From Oscillospiraceae bacterium (lineage in GTDB: Bacteria > Bacillota > Clostridia > Oscillospirales > Oscillospiraceae), in NCBI GenBank assembly GCA_017458065.1, contig JAFTGD010000006.1, positions 1 through 64,000 of the forward strand: 64,000 nt of DNA. Direction: 5' to 3'. Position numbers and translations under genes: made by a program. Of this stretch, positions 4,562 through 32,163 are shown piece by piece; position 1 is the stretch's first letter; each line of letters begins with the position of its first letter. The notes below the pieces were generated by a model. That model made no database searches. It was not told the DNA's origin and saw nothing but the letters and a program-made list of their open reading frames with translations.

Positions 4562-4589
4562 CAACAAATAAACAAGTGCTTAATTGTTG
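4562..4589. promoter_or_regulatory. Candidate ArsR-type operator
   Basis: A 28-bp imperfect palindrome starts CAACAAATAA and ends TTAATTGTTG; 11 of 14 base pairs are symmetric. It resembles the AT-rich 12-2-12 sites bound by CadC/SmtB proteins and overlaps the predicted +1 of the HMA-cadA promoter. It lies in the gap between this gene set and the divergent ArsR-AraC gene. Binding is inferred. Confidence 0.65.
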
Positions 4590-4616
4590 AATGAGAAAAC
4601 CATGGAGGGATTCGCA

Positions 4617-4835
4617 ATGAAAAAGACCTATAAGATCGAAGTGGACTGCGCCAACTGTGCCAATCTCATGGAAGATACGACCCGCAAGGTGGCCGGTGTT
4701 GCCGGCGCGACGGTAAACTTTATTACGCAGAAGATGACGGTGGAGTTTGAAGAGGGACAGGATCCCAAAACCGTGATGAAGGACGTGCTGAAGGCCTGCA
4801 AGAAGGTCGAGCCCGACTGCGAGATCGAATTCTGA
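4617..4835 (+). CDS. Free-standing heavy-metal-associated (HMA) domain protein
   Basis: 72 aa with the ferredoxin-like HMA pattern. A metal-binding DCANCA (Cys11, Cys14) lies in the first loop, followed by a VAGVAGATVNFITQKMTVEF segment. Two extra Cys occur near the C-terminus (CKKVEPDCEIEF). The downstream CadA has no N-terminal HMA domain, so this protein may act in trans as its metallochaperone or buffer. The ATG at 4617 is preferred over the in-frame one at 4584 because GGAGGG lies 7 nt before it. It is first in the transcript, with an attenuator-like hairpin before cadA, which predicts more HMA protein than pump. Confidence 0.88.
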   Translation: MKKTYKIEVDCANCANLMEDTTRKVAGVAGATVNFITQKMTVEFEEGQDPKTVMKDVLKACKKVEPDCEIEF

Positions 4836-4847
4836 ACAACAGCCGCA

Positions 4848-4877
4848 CGCCTCATTCGCCGAATGGGGCGTTTTTTT
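4848..4877 (+). terminator. Terminator or attenuator between HMA gene and cadA
   Basis: CGCCTCATTC and GAATGGGGCG pair over 10 bp (one G-U type pair) around a 3-nt loop, then seven T. This is a textbook intrinsic terminator only 12 nt after the HMA stop. No new promoter is evident before cadA, so cadA probably depends on read-through. Confidence 0.8.
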
Positions 4878-4921
4878 ACTGCGGAACATGGAAACTGTAG
4901 GAAACGGACCGGGAAACAGAC

Positions 4922-6805
4922 ATGAGCAAGAAACAGAAGAAAATGCTGATCAGGATCATCATTGCATCCCTGCTGATGATCCTGCTGAATGTGCTGAAGC
5001 TGCCGAAGGCGGTGTCGGCGGCGGGCTATCTCGTCACCTATCTGGTGATCGGCTGGGATATCCTGCGCAAGGCCTGGAAGGGCGTCCTGAACCGGAGGCC
5101 TTTTGACGAGTGCTTTCTGATGGCGGTGGCCACGCTGGGCGCCATCGGGCTTGCGGTCTATGAGCGGAGCGGGGACTACAATGAAGCGGTCGCGGTCATG
5201 CTGTTCTACCAGATCGGCGAGTTTTTCCAGAGCTATGCCGTCGGCCGAAGCCGCCGAAACATCACCGAGCTCATGGATATCCGACCCGACTATGCAAACA
5301 TCGAGCGCGATGGAGCGCTGGAACAGGTCGATCCGGACGAGGTGGAGATCGGTACCGTGATCGTGGTCCAGCCGGGGGAGAAGGTACCCATCGACGGCAC
5401 GGTCATCGAGGGCAGCTCCACGCTGAACACCAGCGCCCTCACCGGCGAGAGCGTCCCCCGGGAGTGCAGGGCCGGGGATGAGATCATCAGTGGCTGCATC
5501 AACCTCACCGGCGTTTTGAAGATCCGTACGACCAAAGAGTTCGGCGAATCCACAGTCTCGAAGATCCTCGAGCTGGTGGAGAACGCCAGCTCCCGCAAAT
5601 CGCGCTCGGAGGAGTTCATCTCCCGCTTTGCCCGCGTCTATACGCCCGCGGTGGTCTACAGTGCTTTGGCCCTCGCGATCCTGCCGCCGCTGGTACGGCT
5701 GGTCGCGGGCATGCCGGCGGACTGGAACATCTGGATTTACCGCGCGCTGACCTTCCTGGTCATCAGCTGCCCCTGCGCGCTGGTCATCAGCATCCCGCTG
5801 AGCTTCTTTGCCGGGATCGGCGGCGCCAGCCACGAGGGTGTGCTCATCAAGGGCTCGAACTATCTGGAGACGCTGTCCCAGGTCAAGACGGTGGTCTTCG
5901 ACAAGACCGGTACCCTGACCAAAGGCGTCTTCGAGGTCAGCGGCGTTCACCACAGCCCCCTGGAGGACGCGGAGCTGCTGGAGCTGGCAGCTCTGGTGGA
6001 GTGCGCCTCCTCCCACCCGATCAGCAGAAGCCTGCAGCGTGCCCACGGCAAAGAGATCGACCGCGGCCGTGTCGCGGACATTGAGGAGATCAGCGGCGAG
6101 GGCGTCGTCGGCAGAGTGGACGGCCGTCCGGTCGCAGCCGGCAATGACAAGCTGATGAAGCGGCTCGGCATCGCCTGGCAGGACTGCCGCAGCGTCGGGA
6201 CCGTCATCCATATCGCGGTCGACGGGGCATACGCCGGTCATATCGTGATCTCGGACCTCGAGAAGCCAAACGTGAAAGAGGCGATCCGTGCCCTCCGCGA
6301 CGCGGGGATCAGAAGAATTATTATGTTAACCGGAGACGCCGAGAAGGTGGCGTCCCATGTGGCGGCGGACCTCGGGATCGACGAATACCATGCCCAGCTG
6401 CTGCCGGGGGACAAGGTCGACCTGGTCGAACGCTTCCTCGCGGAGCAGAGCGGCCGGGAGAAGCTGGCCTTCGTGGGGGACGGCATCAACGACGCGCCGG
6501 TCCTCTCAAGGGCGGACATCGGCATCGCCATGGGGGCGCTGGGCTCCGACGCGGCCATCGAGGCGGCGGATATTGTCCTGATGGACGACGACCCGATGAA
6601 GATTGCCAAGGGGATCAGAATTTCGCGCAAATGCATCCGTATCGTCTACGAGAACATCGTTTTTGCGCTGGCAGTCAAGTTCGGCTGCCTGATCCTGGGC
6701 GCGCTGGGCATCGCCAACATGTGGGCGGCGATCTTTGCCGACGTGGGCGTGATGGTGATCGCCGTACTGAACGCGATCCGCGCCCTCCGGGTAAAGAACC
6801 TGTAA
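4922..6805 (+). CDS. cadA: P1B-type heavy-metal-exporting ATPase (Cd/Zn/Pb type)
   Basis: 627 aa. All catalytic parts are present: actuator TGES (LTGESVPRE), transmembrane SCPCALVIS with Cys283-Pro-Cys285, phosphorylation DKTGTLT at Asp327, the SSHPIS motif of the N-domain, and GDGINDAPVLSRADIGIAMG in the hinge. Two membrane helices precede the actuator domain pair (MA/MB layout). The N-terminal HMA domain common in CadA is absent; the separate HMA gene upstream may replace it. CPC with a C-terminal NxxR/K-rich tail fits divalent Zn/Cd/Pb rather than Cu. The ribosome site is weak (CGGGAAACAGAC), consistent with low-level expression of a membrane pump. Confidence 0.95.
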   Translation: MSKKQKKMLIRIIIASLLMILLNVLKLPKAVSAAGYLVTYLVIGWDILRKAWKGVLNRRPFDECFLMAVATLGAIGLAVYERSGDYNEAVAVMLFYQIGEFFQSYAVGRSRRNITELMDIRPDYANIERDGALEQVDPDEVEIGTVIVVQPGEKVPIDGTVIEGSSTLNTSALTGESVPRECRAGDEIISGCINLTGVLKIRTTKEFGESTVSKILELVENASSRKSRSEEFISRFARVYTPAVVYSALALAILPPLVRLVAGMPADWNIWIYRALTFLVISCPCALVISIPLSFFAGIGGASHEGVLIKGSNYLETLSQVKTVVFDKTGTLTKGVFEVSGVHHSPLEDAELLELAALVECASSHPISRSLQRAHGKEIDRGRVADIEEISGEGVVGRVDGRPVAAGNDKLMKRLGIAWQDCRSVGTVIHIAVDGAYAGHIVISDLEKPNVKEAIRALRDAGIRRIIMLTGDAEKVASHVAADLGIDEYHAQLLPGDKVDLVERFLAEQSGREKLAFVGDGINDAPVLSRADIGIAMGALGSDAAIEAADIVLMDDDPMKIAKGIRISRKCIRIVYENIVFALAVKFGCLILGALGIANMWAAIFADVGVMVIAVLNAIRALRVKNL

Positions 6806-10534: not shown

Positions 10535-11164
10535 TCACAATAAGCTCATCTGAGCTGCTTGAGCTTCAGTCTGCGCCTGAATCAGTCTTCTTTCCGCATC
10601 GCGCCGTGCAATTTCCGTTTCTGTAGTTTGGCTTTCAAGGATAGCGCCTCTTTGAGCAACTTTGATCTTTGCCTCAGCTTCAGCCTCAGCAGTCATATAC
10701 GATGCTCGGCTTTGAGCCTGAGAGGTGCGGACCTCAGCCTCCGCAGCGGCCATCTTCTTTTGGAGTGCGATGGTGTGCAGCTCGCGGAGTCTTTTGAAAT
10801 TCGGATCACTTTCAGGAAGAACTATATTGGTCAGGAAAAATTGTGGAATTGTGAGTCCATAATCCTCAAAACCAGGGACAATTTTCTCGCGAAGAGCGTC
10901 TCCAATGTCTTTCGTGATGTTTTGCCACTGAACAAGAATCTCATTGTAGTTTCTACCCAAGCGATCCACGCTCTTTAGAATCAATAGGTCGCCGGGCTTC
11001 AAACGTTTCAGCATTTTCTGATAAGCCGGACGGTCAAAGTCTTTGCCGGACTGATAATCACAATAGATATTCTTCCGTGGAATGTTGTAGGGCTTCAGCG
11101 CTGCGAGCTGCCTGTCGATGTTTTGCTCTTTGGTTGAAACCCGTACATAAGCATATTCAGCCAT
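10535..11164 (-). pseudogene. Chimera of a serine-resolvase N-terminus and an SPFH-protein C-terminus
   Basis: 209 aa in one open frame. Residues 1 to about 86 are the N-terminal half of a small serine recombinase: YAYVRVSTKEQNIDRQ has the catalytic Ser in RVSTKEQ, and LKSVDRLGRNYNEI is the RLGR-type helix. From about residue 87 the sequence switches to the end of an SPFH/band-7 virion-core-like protein (FEDYGLTIPQFFLTNIVLPE, then an Ala/Glu-rich coiled coil AAEAEVRTSQAQSRASYMTA). The recombinase lacks its remaining catalytic helix and DNA-binding HTH, and the SPFH part lacks its N-terminus, so neither normal function is expected. GGAGGT precedes the ATG and a strong promoter lies upstream, so the fusion is likely expressed. 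Confidence 0.8.
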
Positions 11165-25750: not shown

Positions 25751-26506
25751 ATGGAGCACGCAAACGGAATCGAGAACGAACTGATAGAAGGCCGCAACGC
25801 GGTCACCGAGGCCCTGCGCGCCGGCAGACCTATCGACAAGATCTTTCTTGCCGGCGGGGAAGGGGACCGGACGCTCGGCTTTATCTCCACCGTTGCCCGG
25901 GACAAGGGCATCACGGTGGTGGAGTGCGACCGCAGGAAGCTGGACGGAATGAGCGAAACCCACGCCCACCAGGGCGTGATCGCTGTCTGTGCGGTGCGGG
26001 AGTACGAGTCGGTGCAGGACATTCTCGACCGGGCCGCGGCGCTCGGGGAGGACCCCTTTGTTGTGGTCTGTGATGAGATCACCGACAGCCACAACCTCGG
26101 CGCCATCATTCGTTCGGCCGAGTGCGCGGGCGCCCACGGCGTCATCATTCCGAAGCGTCGCAGCGCCGGTCTCACCGCGGTGGTCAACAAGGCCTCGGCC
26201 GGCGCGGCCGAGCATCTGCCCGTGGCCCGGGTGCCGAATCTCCGTGCGGCTCTGGAAGAGCTGAAGGAGAAGGGCGTCTGGATCTACGGCACCGCGGCGG
26301 ACGGAGCATGCCCTCTCTGGAAGACAGAACTCACCGGCCCCATCGCTCTGGTGATCGGGTCCGAGGGCTCCGGCATGGGGCGCCTCGTCCGTGAGAGCTG
26401 TGACTTTATCCTGTCGCTCCCCATGAAGGGGAAGATCTCGTCCCTCAACGCCTCTGTCGCGGGGGCCATCGTGATGTATGAGATCATGCGGCAGCGCAGT
26501 ACCTGA
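25751..26506 (+). CDS. rlmB: 23S rRNA (guanosine-2'-O)-methyltransferase RlmB/TrmH family
   Basis: 251 aa. A substrate-binding domain at the N-terminus (EGRNAVTEALRAGRPIDKIF) leads into the SPOUT knot, with DEITDSHNLGAIIRSAECAG, then LVIGSEGSGMGRLVRESCD and ISSLNASVAGAIVMYE, the three family motifs. It methylates a ribose 2'-OH in 23S rRNA (G2251 in E. coli) using SAM. GGAG is 6 nt before the ATG. The large P-type-ATPase-like gene starts 60 bp downstream and may be co-transcribed. Confidence 0.94.
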   Translation: MEHANGIENELIEGRNAVTEALRAGRPIDKIFLAGGEGDRTLGFISTVARDKGITVVECDRRKLDGMSETHAHQGVIAVCAVREYESVQDILDRAAALGEDPFVVVCDEITDSHNLGAIIRSAECAGAHGVIIPKRRSAGLTAVVNKASAGAAEHLPVARVPNLRAALEELKEKGVWIYGTAADGACPLWKTELTGPIALVIGSEGSGMGRLVRESCDFILSLPMKGKISSLNASVAGAIVMYEIMRQRST

Positions 26507-26566: not shown

Positions 26567-29500
26567 ATGAAACGGGACAAATGGGACCCGGAGACGGCGG
26601 AGCCTCAGGAATACCTGACGGACGACGCAGCGGAACCGGATGCCGACGCGGAGTCAATGGAGTTCTCGCTGGAGGATATCCTCTTTGAGTTCTCCGGCGG
26701 CGGCCGCGCCGGGGTCGAAGAGCCGGAAGAGGAAGAAGCGCTCTTCGATTCTGACAAGGAATACGAATTTCATATTGACCCGGACGAGGGGAAAGCAGCG
26801 ACAGCGGAGCCGGACCTTGATAAGCCGGAGTCCGGCGGAGAAGCGGCCTTTGCCCTTTACAGGGACGAAACGCCTGCCGCCTCCCGGGAGGAACCGGAAG
26901 CGGAGGAAGCCGAAGAAGCCCCCGAAGAGCCGGAAGAATACACCGACAGCTGGTATGAGGAAGAACCGGAGCAGGCAGCGAGTCTGCCCGAAGAGGAGCT
27001 CCCCCCGCCGGAGGCGGAAGAGCCCGCCGGGGAACCGGAGGAGCCTGCCGGCGCGGAACCCGAGGAAGAGCCCGAACAGCCCTCCCGCGGACGCAGATGG
27101 CCGCTTCACGCAAGGAAGCACAAGGTCTGGGAAGAGTTCCCGGACAGCAGCGCGGAAGAGGACCTGAGCGCCCAAAGCGGAGAGGACACGGTGGATTATT
27201 CGGCCCTGTTCCGGATGTTTGCCGACCCCGTGGAGGAAGAGACCGGGAACCCGGCGGCGGACCGCCCCGCGGTGGACAGCCCCGCCGAGCGGGAGAGCCC
27301 CCGGCGCGAAGCGGGGGAGACCGGCGGCGCCCACGAGCCGAAAATGGAGCCCGCACCGGAAGAGGAACAGCCTCTTTTTGCCGAGAACCCGCTGGACTTC
27401 CGGGATATTCTGAGAGAGTTCATGCTGGGCGACCAGCATCCCATCTATGACGACACGCCGGGCATCGGCTCGCGGCCGGACAGCGCCTCACTGATCGACA
27501 GCGGCCTGGACGACCTGGACGATATGCTCCGCGGCGTCATCAACAACGTCCCGGAATCCAAGAGCCGCACCGGGGAAGCCCCGCAGAAGGAAGAAGAACC
27601 GGAAGCGCCGAAAGCTGAAGAAACCGAAGAGGCTCCGGAGACGCCGAAGCCCGGGAAGCCTGCACGCTCAGCTCTCGCGGACGCGGGCCTTGCCAAGTGG
27701 AAAGAGCGCTGGGGCCGCCCGAGGCAGAAAAAGGAGCCGAAGGAAGCCAAAGCGGTCAAAGAGCCCGGCGAGACCGGTAAGCCGAAAGAATACACCGTCG
27801 AGGAAGACTTCCCGCTGGACCGGGCGGAGAACCCGGAGCCTGCGGAAGCGCCGGAACAGACCGGCGACGGCCGACAGAATGAAGCGGGCTGGAACAGCCT
27901 GCCCGACCTCGACAGCATTGTCGTCCCCGGAACGGCTCCGGCCCTGGATCCGGCCGCCCCTCCCCACAGGGAGGAGCCCTCGCCGGAGGAGGAGACCGCC
28001 GAGGAGACGGAGGAAGAGCCGGAAGGCGGCATCAGCAAGCTGATGCGCCGCTTCGGCGTCCGCAGCGGCAACAGCAAAAAGCGCGCCCTGAACGAGCCGA
28101 AGGCCTATGCCGGCTTCGAGGACTATGTCCCGCAGGAAGAGGCCCCGAAACCCGCCGAGACCGCACCCGCTTCCGCAGGCGAGGCGCAGTCTGCCGAGGC
28201 CGCTCCCGAAGCCCCGGAGGCCCGGATCCCCACGCCGAGCCAGGAAGAGCTGGACGACGAGATCCTCTACTCCGGCGACTTCCCCTCCTTCGGCCAGTGG
28301 ATCCTGAACGAGCTGATGACGCTCTGGATCCGCCTCAACGGCATCGGAGACCGCGAGAGCACGGCCACGATGGAGGATGACGCCGAAGACCTCGGCCGTG
28401 AGGTCAACGTCGCCAATGCCTCCCGCTACTACGGGTCGCAGGTGACGATGCTGCGGATGCGCTTCCAGATCGGCCTGGTGCTGCTCGCGATCCTGGCGTA
28501 TATCACGTTGGGCTTCCCGCTGAGCGGCATGCTCAAGACCGCCAAGGTCGCCTCGGCCATGTGCCTCGGCCTGCAGCTGACCATCATGCTGCTCTGCCTC
28601 GACATTGTGACGAACGCGGCTGTCAATCTCGTCCGCCGCAGGTTCGGCGCGGACGCGCTCGCGGTGCTGGCCTGTGTGATCAGCTCCTTCGACGCGCTGA
28701 GCGTCGCCGTGGGCGGTTTCGGCAACCCGCATATCCCGCTCTGCCTGTTTTCCAGCCTCGCCCTGATGGGCGTGCTGTTCTCCGCTCTGCTCTCGGCCAG
28801 GGGTCTGCGCAAGGCAACCCGCGTCCCCGCCATCGGAAAACGCGTCTACTGCGTGACGGCGGAAGAGGGCGTGCGCGGCGGGGGAGACCTGACCCTCCTG
28901 AAGTCAGTCCGGCCCAGCGCGGGCTTTGTGCGCCGCGCCGAGGAAGCGCCGCCCGATGAGGCGCTCTTCAACCGGACGGCCCTGATCCAGCTGCTGGCGG
29001 CGATCGTCCTGTCGCTGCTCACGGCCGTGGTCAAGCACAGCGTCGGGGATATGCTGTATATCCTCTCGGCGATTCTGTCCTGCGCGGTCCCGGTGACGGC
29101 GCTGCTGGCCTTCGCGCTGCCGTTCTTCATCGGCTCCGAGCGCATTTTCTCCAGCGGTGCGGCGGTCGCCGGCTGGTCCGGCATCCATGACATCGGCTGC
29201 AGCCGCAACCTGATCGTGACCGACCGCGACCTCTTCCCCGAGGAGACCATCGCCATCGAGACGGTCCGCATCTTTGCCGACGACAGCGCCGAGCGCGTGA
29301 TCGGCTTTGCCGGGACGATGATCGCGGCCTCCGGCTCGGGTCTCGCCCCCTGCTTTGCCGAGCTGATGGAGAAGAACAACTGCCGCATGCGCCAGGTGGA
29401 GGACTTCCAGTGGCTCTCCGGCGGCGGACTGCAGGGCCGCATCGAGGGCAGCACGGTCCTCTGCGGCAGCTCCGATCTGATGCAGCTGATGAACGTCAAG

Positions 29501-30022
29501 GTGCCCTACCGCCTGGTGGACCGGACGACGGTGCTGCTGGCGATCGACGGGGTGCTCTACGGCATCTTCAAGATCAACTACACCGGACTGCCCGAGATCC
29601 GCACGGCGCTGCAGGAGCTGATCGCCTCCAACCGCCATCCGATCTTTGCCATCCGTGACTTCAACATCACGCCCGAGATGCTGCACGAGGTCTTTGACGT
29701 GGCCACCGACGGCTACGACTTCCCGCCCTACGGCGACCGCTTCCGCATCTCGGAGGCCAAGCCCTCCGAGACCAGCAAGGTCTCGGCCGTCATCTGCCGG
29801 GAAGGCCTCGGCCCCCTGACGCACCTGGCCGACACCGGGCGCAGTATGTATGTCGCCATCCGCCTGAACCTGATGATCACCGCGCTGGTGGCGGTGCTGG
29901 GGATGCTGCTGGTCTTCGTCAAGCTGATCGGAACCGGCGAAGTGAGCGCGTGGCTGCCCTTCGTGCTGATGCTGCTGGATGCCGTTATGGTGACGCTGAT
30001 CAGCCTGTTTATGAGATTTTGA
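26567..30022 (+). CDS. Large acidic protein with a catalytically degenerate P1B-ATPase-like membrane domain
   Basis: 1151 aa from the ATG at 26567; a GTG-started frame adds 17 residues from 26516. Residues 1 to about 620 are Glu/Pro-rich, low in complexity, and probably disordered. Then eight membrane helices follow the P1B order (MA-MB, M1-M6). Helix 6 holds SCAVPVTALLAF where CadA in this window has SCPCALVIS, and HDIGCSRNLIVTDRDLFPEE aligns with the phosphorylation loop; Asp886 is kept but DKTGT has become DRDLF. The actuator between helices 4 and 5 is only about 55 aa with no TGES, and no GDGxND is found. It cannot be a working pump; a sensor or scaffold role is a guess. It precedes the EF-G-like gene. 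Confidence 0.75.
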   Translation: MKRDKWDPETAEPQEYLTDDAAEPDADAESMEFSLEDILFEFSGGGRAGVEEPEEEEALFDSDKEYEFHIDPDEGKAATAEPDLDKPESGGEAAFALYRDETPAASREEPEAEEAEEAPEEPEEYTDSWYEEEPEQAASLPEEELPPPEAEEPAGEPEEPAGAEPEEEPEQPSRGRRWPLHARKHKVWEEFPDSSAEEDLSAQSGEDTVDYSALFRMFADPVEEETGNPAADRPAVDSPAERESPRREAGETGGAHEPKMEPAPEEEQPLFAENPLDFRDILREFMLGDQHPIYDDTPGIGSRPDSASLIDSGLDDLDDMLRGVINNVPESKSRTGEAPQKEEEPEAPKAEETEEAPETPKPGKPARSALADAGLAKWKERWGRPRQKKEPKEAKAVKEPGETGKPKEYTVEEDFPLDRAENPEPAEAPEQTGDGRQNEAGWNSLPDLDSIVVPGTAPALDPAAPPHREEPSPEEETAEETEEEPEGGISKLMRRFGVRSGNSKKRALNEPKAYAGFEDYVPQEEAPKPAETAPASAGEAQSAEAAPEAPEARIPTPSQEELDDEILYSGDFPSFGQWILNELMTLWIRLNGIGDRESTATMEDDAEDLGREVNVANASRYYGSQVTMLRMRFQIGLVLLAILAYITLGFPLSGMLKTAKVASAMCLGLQLTIMLLCLDIVTNAAVNLVRRRFGADALAVLACVISSFDALSVAVGGFGNPHIPLCLFSSLALMGVLFSALLSARGLRKATRVPAIGKRVYCVTAEEGVRGGGDLTLLKSVRPSAGFVRRAEEAPPDEALFNRTALIQLLAAIVLSLLTAVVKHSVGDMLYILSAILSCAVPVTALLAFALPFFIGSERIFSSGAAVAGWSGIHDIGCSRNLIVTDRDLFPEETIAIETVRIFADDSAERVIGFAGTMIAASGSGLAPCFAELMEKNNCRMRQVEDFQWLSGGGLQGRIEGSTVLCGSSDLMQLMNVKVPYRLVDRTTVLLAIDGVLYGIFKINYTGLPEIRTALQELIASNRHPIFAIRDFNITPEMLHEVFDVATDGYDFPPYGDRFRISEAKPSETSKVSAVICREGLGPLTHLADTGRSMYVAIRLNLMITALVAVLGMLLVFVKLIGTGEVSAWLPFVLMLLDAVMVTLISLFMRF

Positions 30023-30150: not shown

Positions 30151-32163
30151 ATGGAAAGTAAAAACATTCGCAACATCGCCCTTCTCGGGCACGGAAACAG
30201 CGGTAAGACCAGCCTTGCCGAGAGCATGCTGTTCGTCACCGGCGCGGTAGACCGTCTCGGCAAAGTCAGCGACGGCAATACCGCGTGCGACTATGACGCG
30301 GAAGAGATCAAGCGTCAGATCACGATCGCATCTTCCCTGGCCCCGATCTCCTTCGGTGCCAACAAGGTGAATGTTCTGGACTGCCCGGGCTACTTTGACT
30401 TTGTCGGCGAGGTCCTCTGCGCCCTGCGCGCGGTGGAAGCGGGTGTGATTCTGTGCTCCGCCAAGGACGGCATCTCCGTCGGCGCCGAGCGCAGCTGGAA
30501 GTATCTGAAGGCTGCTAACCTCCCCACCGCTTTCGTCGTCTCCAAGTGCGATGAAGAGCACGGCGACTACTTTGCCGTGGTCGATGCGCTGCGCGCCAAG
30601 TACGGCAGCATCGTCGCTCCCGTCACCATCCCGACCGGCGACGGCAAGGGCGTTATCGACCTGGTCCACAACGTCTGCTACACCACCAACGGCGCCAAGA
30701 GCACCAAGGGCGCCATCCCCGCGGACGATGCCGGTCATGCCGAGGACCTGAGAATGGAACTCATGGAGACCGCCGCCGGCGCCACCGAGGAGCTGATGGA
30801 GAAGTTCTTTGATACCATGGAGCTGGATGAGGCCGACATGATCGCCGGTATCCGCGCAGGTATGAAGGACCGCAGCGTCGTCCCCGTGTTTGCAAGCTCC
30901 GCCATGCAGAACATCGGCACCGAGGCCTTCCTCCAGGGTGTTGTGGACTATGTCCCGGCTCCCACTGAGATGGACGGCATCGACGCCGCCGCCCCGACCC
31001 AGGGCTTTGTCTTCAAGACGGTTTCCGACCAGTTCGGCAAGTACAGCTTCGTCAAGGTCATGAAGGGCAGCATCAGCTCCGATCTGTCCCTGCGTAACGT
31101 CCGCGCTTCCTCCACCGACAAGCTCGGCCGTCTCTACAGCATCTGCGGCAAGAAGACCACCGAAGTCAAGGACGCCTGCTGCGGTGACATCGTCGCCGTC
31201 GGCAAGATGGACTGGAAGACCGGCGACACGGTCTGCGACCCGAAGAACGAGGTCGAGCTTCCCGCCATCGAGATGCCCGAACCCTGCTACTCCATGGCCA
31301 TCTCCCCGAAGACCAAGGGCCAGGACGACAAGGTTGCCGGCGGTCTTGCCAGACTGAACGAAGAAGACATCTCCTTCACCCTCGTCAACAACGCCGAGAC
31401 CCACCAGATGGTCATCTCCGGCCAGGGCGACATCCAGGTCGACGTCCTCTGCGCCAAGCTGAAGAGCCGCTTCGGTGTTGAGACCGAGCTGGCCCCGGCC
31501 CGCGTCGCCTACCGCGAGAAGATCAAGGGCAAGGTCGAAGCCCACGGCCGTCACAAGAAGCAGTCCGGCGGTTCCGGCCAGTTCGGTGATGTGTGGATCC
31601 GCTTCGAGCCGCAGGATGAGTCCGACGAGATGGTCTTCGCCGAGGAAGTCTTCGGCGGTTCCGTTCCCAAAAACTTCTTCCCGTCCGTTGAAAAGGGCCT
31701 GCGCAACGCGGTGCAGAAGGGCGTCCTTGCGGGTTACCCGCTGGTCGGCCTGAAGGCCACGCTGTATGACGGCTCCTATCACCCGGTCGACTCCAACGAT
31801 ATGGCTTTCCAGACGGCTGCCCGTCTTGCGTATCAGGACGGCATCCCCAAGGCCAAGCCCACCATCCTCGAGCCCATCGGCCTGCTTCAGGTCACCATCC
31901 CCGATGCCAACCTCGGCGACATCATGAGCGACATCAGCTCCAAGCGCCGCGGCACCGTGCTCGGCATGAACGCCGAGGACGGCATGCAAACGGTCGAGGC
32001 CGAGGTCCCGATGGCCGAGATGAGCTCCTACACCATCGACCTGCGCTCCATGACTCAGGGACGCGGCTCCTTCTCCTGCAAGTTCATCCGCTATGAGGAG
32101 GCCCCGGGCAACGTCCAGCAGAAGGTCATCGAAGAAGCCAAAGCTTTGGCTGAGCAGGAATGA
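30151..32163 (+). CDS. Elongation factor G-like GTPase (EF-G paralogue)
   Basis: 670 aa with the five-domain EF-G plan. G1 is GHGNSGKT (13-20), G2 region IKRQITIAS, G3 DCPGYFDF (77-84) and G4 SKCDEE (131-136). Canonical EF-G has DTPGH and NKxD, so the catalytic His is Tyr81 here and the base-reading Asn is Ser131. Both changes are known in the EF-G-2/FusA2-like family, which has weak or ribosome-independent GTPase behaviour. Domain IV starts near AYREKIKGKVEAHGRHKKQS. It is probably not the main translocase. GAGAGG precedes the ATG, and the next gene overlaps its stop by ATGA. Tet(M)-like protection protein is a less likely alternative. Confidence 0.9.
   Translation: MESKNIRNIALLGHGNSGKTSLAESMLFVTGAVDRLGKVSDGNTACDYDAEEIKRQITIASSLAPISFGANKVNVLDCPGYFDFVGEVLCALRAVEAGVILCSAKDGISVGAERSWKYLKAANLPTAFVVSKCDEEHGDYFAVVDALRAKYGSIVAPVTIPTGDGKGVIDLVHNVCYTTNGAKSTKGAIPADDAGHAEDLRMELMETAAGATEELMEKFFDTMELDEADMIAGIRAGMKDRSVVPVFASSAMQNIGTEAFLQGVVDYVPAPTEMDGIDAAAPTQGFVFKTVSDQFGKYSFVKVMKGSISSDLSLRNVRASSTDKLGRLYSICGKKTTEVKDACCGDIVAVGKMDWKTGDTVCDPKNEVELPAIEMPEPCYSMAISPKTKGQDDKVAGGLARLNEEDISFTLVNNAETHQMVISGQGDIQVDVLCAKLKSRFGVETELAPARVAYREKIKGKVEAHGRHKKQSGGSGQFGDVWIRFEPQDESDEMVFAEEVFGGSVPKNFFPSVEKGLRNAVQKGVLAGYPLVGLKATLYDGSYHPVDSNDMAFQTAARLAYQDGIPKAKPTILEPIGLLQVTIPDANLGDIMSDISSKRRGTVLGMNAEDGMQTVEAEVPMAEMSSYTIDLRSMTQGRGSFSCKFIRYEEAPGNVQQKVIEEAKALAEQE

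Follow-up and report, generated by a model that had tools for sequence, protein, structure and literature searches.

The first 64,000 nucleotides of contig JAFTGD010000006.1 from an Oscillospiraceae bacterium (assembly GCA_017458065.1), referred to below as the window, carry on their forward strand a gene that lies between rlmB and a gene for an EF-G-like translational GTPase. As judged from sequence comparison, its product very likely belongs to an order-wide family of pseudo-ATPases derived from the P1B-type heavy-metal pumps. A preliminary description of this DNA had pictured an intact frame of more than 1100 residues, in which a membrane half with P1B topology lies behind an acidic, proline-rich N-terminus of about 600 residues, and each of these features is indeed found. 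The tail occupies 631 residues, of which 26.8% are Asp or Glu, 9.8% Lys or Arg and 11.4% Pro; it is devoid of cysteine and thus lacks a metal-binding domain of the CxxC type. Averaged over the family, the hydropathy of the C-terminal core rises to exactly eight peaks, in a 4-2-2 arrangement around one small and one large insertion. The peaks of the window protein itself are split into fragments, which group at the same eight places. The features of the locus are collected in Table 1.

Table 1. Features of the pseudo-ATPase gene and its two neighbours (positions are those of the window)
Feature	Position	Strand	Details
rlmB, 23S rRNA (G2251)-2'-O-methyltransferase gene	25751-26506	+	Directly upstream; TIGR00186 238.1 bits, cut-off 160.15
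Pseudo-P1B-ATPase gene (predicted)	26567-30022	+	ATG at 26567, stop ending at 30022; 1151 aa; intact open frame
Acidic, Pro-rich, Cys-free N-terminal tail, residues 1-631	26567-28459	+	From composition; evolves faster than the core
N-terminal short motif EFSLEDILFEF	26660-26692	+	Commonest forms in the family are FS[LI][DE]DILAE[FV]
Transmembrane helices 1-4 (equivalents of P1B MA, MB, M1, M2), residues 632-750	28460-28816	+	Hydropathy and hhalign; limits approximate
Shrunken actuator replacement without TGES, residues 761-798	28847-28960	+	Large alignment gap opposite the actuator
Helices 5-6 (equivalents of M3, M4)	28973-29134	+	SCAVPVTAL at 29078-29104 where pumps have SCPCAL
VTDRDLFPEE, residues 884-893	29216-29245	+	Replaces the DKTGT phosphorylation loop; family signature DxDxFP
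N-domain-like part	29255-29566	+	Two structural glycines kept (GGGLQG, 29420-29437); HP motif lacking
IRDFNIT, residues 1029-1035	29651-29671	+	Replaces TGDN; Asp1031 and Asn1033 conserved
Site of the missing P-domain segment with GDGxND	29774-29806	+	GDGxND in 0/93
Helices 7-8 (equivalents of M5, M6)	29858-30019	+	Hydropathy and hhalign; limits approximate
EF-G-like translational GTPase gene	30151-32163	+	Downstream; NF009381 800.7 bits, cut-off 583

Relationship to the P1B-type ATPases

The core of 520 amino acids is homologous to the P1B heavy-metal P-type ATPases. When it was compared with P-type models, as the preliminary description had suggested, hhalign matched the family profile to 27 P1B sequences at 99.9% (E 4.5e-37, 484 columns, 13% identity), while the same sequences reversed reached only 0.8%. 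A search of the 28-member profile against sequences from the PDB placed P1B ATPases at the top, the first being Legionella CopA (3rfu, E 2.1e-24), and P2-type pumps appeared only from E 0.021 on. The strongest match to CopA spans the soluble P/N domain (profile positions 171-439). By phylogenetic analysis with FastTree (59 sequences, comprising the 27 P1B pumps and 32 from the family, that is, every third member and the window protein; 290 columns), the family is separated from all 27 pumps with a support of 1.0 and a branch length of 1.24. With the tree rooted arbitrarily inside the Cd/Zn-type pumps, the family sits beside the CopA-like group, a placement for which long-branch effects are possible.

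Curated models capture this relationship poorly. The window frame scores 35.3 bits (E 6e-9) against the NCBIfam heavy-metal P-type ATPase model TIGR01525, about a tenth of the cut-off of 346.25, and has no match in Pfam at E values up to 10. None of 28 family members matches Pfam at E 0.01, and in NCBIfam, at E 0.01 or better, the CopA model is matched by 24 of them, below its cut-off, and TIGR01525 by 22. No curated model of Pfam or NCBIfam therefore fits the protein. The gene that the preliminary description took as a true CadA in the same window (4922-6805) is a genuine P1B ATPase, with 498.6 bits against TIGR01512 (cut-off 313.5) and 548.2 bits against TIGR01525. Within 4584-6805, directly before this CadA-type gene, lies a small frame with a cysteine pair (DCANCANLM), which looks by eye like a heavy-metal domain and has no NCBIfam match.

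The family resembles the P1B ATPases (CopA, CadA/ZntA; TIGR01525, TIGR01511, TIGR01512) in the order of the helices, the proline of M4 and the general layout of the P/N part, but differs from them in its motifs. These were counted in 93 sequences, namely the window protein and 92 loci, a few of which are truncated at contig ends and one of which is a fragment of a broken gene; the P loop is covered by all 93, the place of RDxN by 92 and the region beyond GDGxND by 91. Neither DKTG nor the actuator motif TGE[ST] nor the HP motif of the P1B N-domain, counted by its histidine, occurs in any of the 93. GDGxND is likewise absent from all of them, including the 91 that extend beyond its place. The string GDG appears in two sequences, both times within the first helices, and TGD in nine, never in register. 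The gaps in the hhalign alignment coincide with the GDGxND segment and with the actuator, and the distance from the Asp of the TGD site to the C-terminus has a median of 122 residues in the family against 155.5 in 26 true P1B ATPases, about 33 residues less. The shrunken actuator without TGES and the loss of GDGxND, both noted in the preliminary description for the window protein, are therefore properties of the whole family. The same applies to the change from SCPCAL to SCAVPVTAL at the intramembrane metal site: a cysteine at either column of CPC is found in 5/93, the window protein not being among them, and is gone in the other 88, whereas the M4 proline is retained in 69.

At the place of the phosphorylation loop lies a signature, DxDxFP, whose first Asp is present in 73/93, followed two residues on by Asp or Glu in 84, and then by Phe or Tyr in 89 and Pro in 75. 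It had been claimed that this loop keeps only the Asp of the pump motif. The loss of DKTG is borne out, but the Asp does not line up with the phosphorylated one: in three profile alignments, Thr885 of the window protein stands opposite the phospho-Asp of the pumps and Asp886 opposite their Lys, so that a one-residue shift would be needed to regard the Asp as kept. Across the family, the phospho-Asp column holds Asp in 18/93, the next column in 73, and neither column in 10. The former TGD loop reads RDxN, with the Asp in 90/93 and the Asn in 74; at the position of its Thr, Thr is kept in 58 and Ser stands in 12, and its Gly is found in none. The second Gly of the N-domain GxG (91/93), the Gly of GN (92/93) and Tyr1005 (85/93) are also conserved. 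In the alignments, positions once used for catalysis have given way to newly conserved ones (DxDxFP and RDxN), and what is kept is the eight-helix membrane part together with the outline of both the P and the N domain. These comparisons support P1B ancestry without P1B chemistry. As all 93 sequences lack the catalytic motifs and 88 lack the CPC cysteines, this protein is very probably unable to go through a pump's phosphorylation cycle.

In the alignment of 28 sequences, all three columns that never vary fall in the cytosolic P/N part. Whether this part is more constrained than the helices was checked by the mean commonest-residue fraction, and it is so only to a slight degree (0.357 against 0.315, 0.324 and 0.369 for the helix groups); the functional proposal made below is not based on it.

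Distribution, selection and gene neighbourhood

Rather than isolated decaying copies, the alternative outcome that the preliminary description had considered, a profile search returned the family throughout the order. In a sample of 97 genomes from 63 genera, each at least 90% complete, 93 matched at 163 bits or above, and the gene is present in 22 of 22 families; 12 of the genomes, besides the window, had contributed rows to the profile. Many of the genomes surveyed are metagenome-assembled genomes (MAGs). Among the matches listed, the next one below this score (159.9 bits) is the second piece of a contig-split member, followed by scores of 104.7 and lower. In a first search, 36 of 40 relatives had matched, and the weak matches among these resemble true pumps by score. 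In samples of the class (243 genomes) and the phylum (249 genomes), nine matches from outside the order were obtained at E 1e-30 or better, all of them partial and pump-like (105.8-115.8 bits); at least seven carry DKTGT and GDGxND. As only five to six candidates per genome were scored, a very diverged member outside the order could be missed. A scan of genome contigs with a narrower alignment confirmed 164 relatives, of which the best 80 were kept; they come mostly from MAGs of uncultured Oscillospiraceae, Ruminococcaceae or Clostridia, along with Candidatus Limivicinus, which the NCBI taxonomy lists under Clostridia, Eubacteriales. One scan of viral contigs yielded no relative.

Four of the 97 genomes lack a full match. 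Three of them (G079, G102 and G114) are also without a match for rlmB; in the fourth, G049, rlmB lies near a contig end and is followed by a cut frame that begins like the tail of the family. The four apparent absences look like assembly gaps, although the first three could be true absences. Further genomes were searched for rlmB: two (G014 and G035) have the start of a family-like frame behind it, two (G025 and G028, the latter at a contig edge) do not, and five gave no rlmB match.

Selection rather than decay had been suggested to maintain the gene, and this conclusion is supported for the family as a whole. No premature stop was found within the matched core in any of 74 loci examined out of the best 80 fetched. 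The ratio of non-synonymous to synonymous substitution rates (dN/dS, by the NG86 method, 28 pairs of eight close sequences) is 0.045-0.205 for the core and 0.19-0.38 for the tail in 25 of the pairs, the other three being saturated; many of the underlying dS values exceed 1. Two relatives carry the family gene in two pieces (L206 in G046 and L020 in G016), which may reflect either a sequencing error in the MAG or true loss.

The preliminary description had also proposed to look for homologues beside EF-G-like genes. Such a gene follows at 27 of the 82 loci whose flank is long enough, and does so in 9 of the 22 families, being on the same strand and at most 400 nt away at 22 of these loci; the constant neighbour is instead rlmB. 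A script located rlmB upstream, on the same strand and no more than 300 nt away, at 84 of 92 loci, which became 87 of the 88 that can be evaluated after inspection. Among the eight loci that failed the script, four extend past the end of their contig (L178, L183, L211 and L245), two are overlapping stop-to-stop frames (L036 and L187) and one is the broken copy L206, whose first piece does come after rlmB. The last, L034 in G025, is the only evaluable locus not beside rlmB, which in that genome lies on another contig (L257). From the end of rlmB to the first in-frame ATG the median distance is 28 nt, and it is within 100 nt at 68 of 87 loci. The EF-G-like gene was accordingly downgraded as a candidate key partner. 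Since it recurs downstream in 9 of the 22 families, the trio of rlmB, pseudo-ATPase and EF-G-like gene may be old.

Within flanks of about 5 kb, no further cluster of same-strand neighbours occurs in more than 11 loci, and the larger clusters on the opposite strand look, by position, like antisense shadows of the same genes. Outside the order, rlmB was located at 16 of 26 loci, and none of the frames behind it, within the 1.5 kb or less of flank available, gave a match to the profile of the family, two of the 16 being without any frame listed; the test is a weak one, as the window's own locus (L280) is also unmatched in it because its flank is taken up by the tail. At least eight of these 16 rlmB genes are followed, by eye, by other genes, which we take to be yacP-like in four cases and sigma-factor-like in another four.

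Possible functions of the family

The tail was surveyed in 82 sequences, 10 of the 92 having been dropped for want of a measurable one. Its length ranges from 22 to 904 residues, and 74 of the 82 tails are net acidic. Among these tails, 29 contain a motif of the FS[LI][DE]DILAE[FV] type, with variants allowed, somewhere in residues 1-150, where shuffled sequences lead one to expect 0.1; this excess is indicative and no clean test, because the pattern was written after viewing the sequences and close relatives are counted repeatedly. A looser form can be discerned by eye in many other members. When a related pattern was run over 1.02 million residues of six-frame translated frames from the same loci, the only hit outside the family was the first piece of a broken family gene.

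Membrane proteins that have lost catalysis and now act as regulators are known from the iRhom-type pseudo-proteases, which are conserved and have a fold unrelated to that of P-type ATPases. Within the P-type fold, the closest parallel found is human TMEM94, which has the P-type architecture without TGES and offers a precedent for such a fold without a pump cycle. No ATPase activity was detected for TMEM94, in a study that could not exclude autoinhibition (PMC12134183). It differs from the family in having ten helices, in being structurally nearest to the Ca2+ pump SPCA and in residing in the eukaryotic endoplasmic reticulum (ER) (PMC12134183). Its status is disputed, as another paper argues that it is an ER Mg2+-ATPase, ERMA (PMC13322241). 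CtpE is described as an active Ca2+ pump. Few ion pumps are as well understood as the P-type ATPases, and TMEM94 is the only catalytically dead candidate that our literature searches brought to light; among the open-licence papers listed, judged by title or the start of the abstract, there was no example of an order-wide bacterial pseudo-P-type ATPase. A family with dozens of diverged members and a constant gene partner offers a direct system for asking what the pump fold does without its cycle. It is, moreover, a near-core gene of gut-type bacteria that no curated model fits, none of 28 members reaching Pfam and the NCBIfam matches being weak.

We favour, with modest confidence, an explanation in which this P1B-derived pseudo-ATPase serves as a non-pumping membrane scaffold or regulator, a function inferred from the features above. 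At the cell membrane the protein probably has a new task other than pumping; that this task is specifically the scaffold or regulator mechanism has about an even chance of being right. The protein would be a non-transporting membrane anchor, whose remodelled P/N pseudo-domain, with DxDxFP, RDxN and the near-invariant glycines, would form a docking surface. The acidic tail, which would be cytosolic if the topology is that of P1B pumps, might reach out and capture a partner through its FSLDDILAEF-like N-terminal motif. That the gene is so closely paired with rlmB, and that an EF-G-like gene recurs behind it, weakly suggests that this partner could be part of the ribosome or the translation machinery, a tentative link drawn from gene order that we hold to be rather unlikely. 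The most far-reaching version, according to which the order turned a copper-type pump into a near-universal core-genome membrane scaffold, encoded behind rlmB and often ahead of an EF-G-like gene, which may tether or tune a translation-related partner at the membrane through an acidic tail with a family-specific docking motif, is doubtful.

Several observations weigh against the scaffold proposal. The strong form of the motif is absent from 53 of the 82 tails. At all seven loci of one family (f10; L042, L213 and L215-L219) the frames are only 550-554 residues long and the tail is nearly absent, so that the tail cannot be required everywhere, and its role as a universal working part was rejected. 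The fetched stretch of each of these seven loci also holds a frame that is presumably YebC-like, to go by its start, GHSKW. As to the neighbourhood, rlmB is universal, being present in 118 of 118 genomes of the class, and its adjacency may therefore come from shared transcription instead of function. Some HAD-type residues persist, namely the Thr of TGD in 58/93 and its Asp in 90/93, which makes residual nucleotide or phosphate binding possible. In addition, TMEM94 binds a nucleotide analogue with micromolar affinity (PMC12134183).

Among the other explanations, the one that survives best is a passive transporter, in which the P1B membrane domain has turned into a facilitator, a channel or a lipid-handling protein that does not need ATP. 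All eight helices are kept, with the M4 proline in 69/93, and the commonest-residue fraction of the helices (0.32-0.37), close to the 0.36 of the P/N part, indicates that the membrane part is under some constraint. TMEM94, with its P-type-like fold and no ATPase activity detected, had lipid in its membrane part (PMC12134183). The metal-coordinating cysteines, however, are gone in 88/93, and none of the three invariant columns falls in the helices, all of them being in the cytosolic P/N part; transport of this kind seems unlikely.

Somewhat less likely again is a new phosphoryl chemistry or a role in nucleotide sensing, whereby the DxD of DxDxFP would act like the DxD pair of other HAD proteins or the N-domain would bind a nucleotide signal. 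The spacing fits such a role, with Asp in 73/93 and Asp or Glu in 84/93 behind a hydrophobic strand, and so do the Asp of RDxN (90/93), the Thr (58) or Ser (12) at the TGD position and the N-domain glycines (91 and 92 of 93). Against this, 10/93 have no Asp at either candidate position and the HP motif is found in none. The GDGxND segment provides Mg2+ ligands that HAD chemistry needs, and as the segment is missing (0/93, with a C-terminal part about 33 residues shorter in median), these ligands are gone too.

That hydrophobic helices and composition merely mimic a similarity to P-type ATPases might be argued from the lack of any Pfam match for the window protein or the 28 members, but is scarcely credible, as the strongest match to CopA covers the soluble P/N domain, the reversed decoy reached 0.8% and 24 of 28 members match the NCBIfam CopA model, if below its cut-off. 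A decaying P1B pseudogene, which the lost catalytic motifs and the two broken copies among the relatives (G016 and G046) could bring to mind, is refuted by conservation in 93/97 genomes and 22/22 families, with no core stop in 74/74 loci and a core dN/dS of 0.045-0.205.

Elsewhere in the window, an open reading frame on the minus strand (10535-11164) appears by eye to be serine-recombinase-like and is possibly the remnant of a mobile element.

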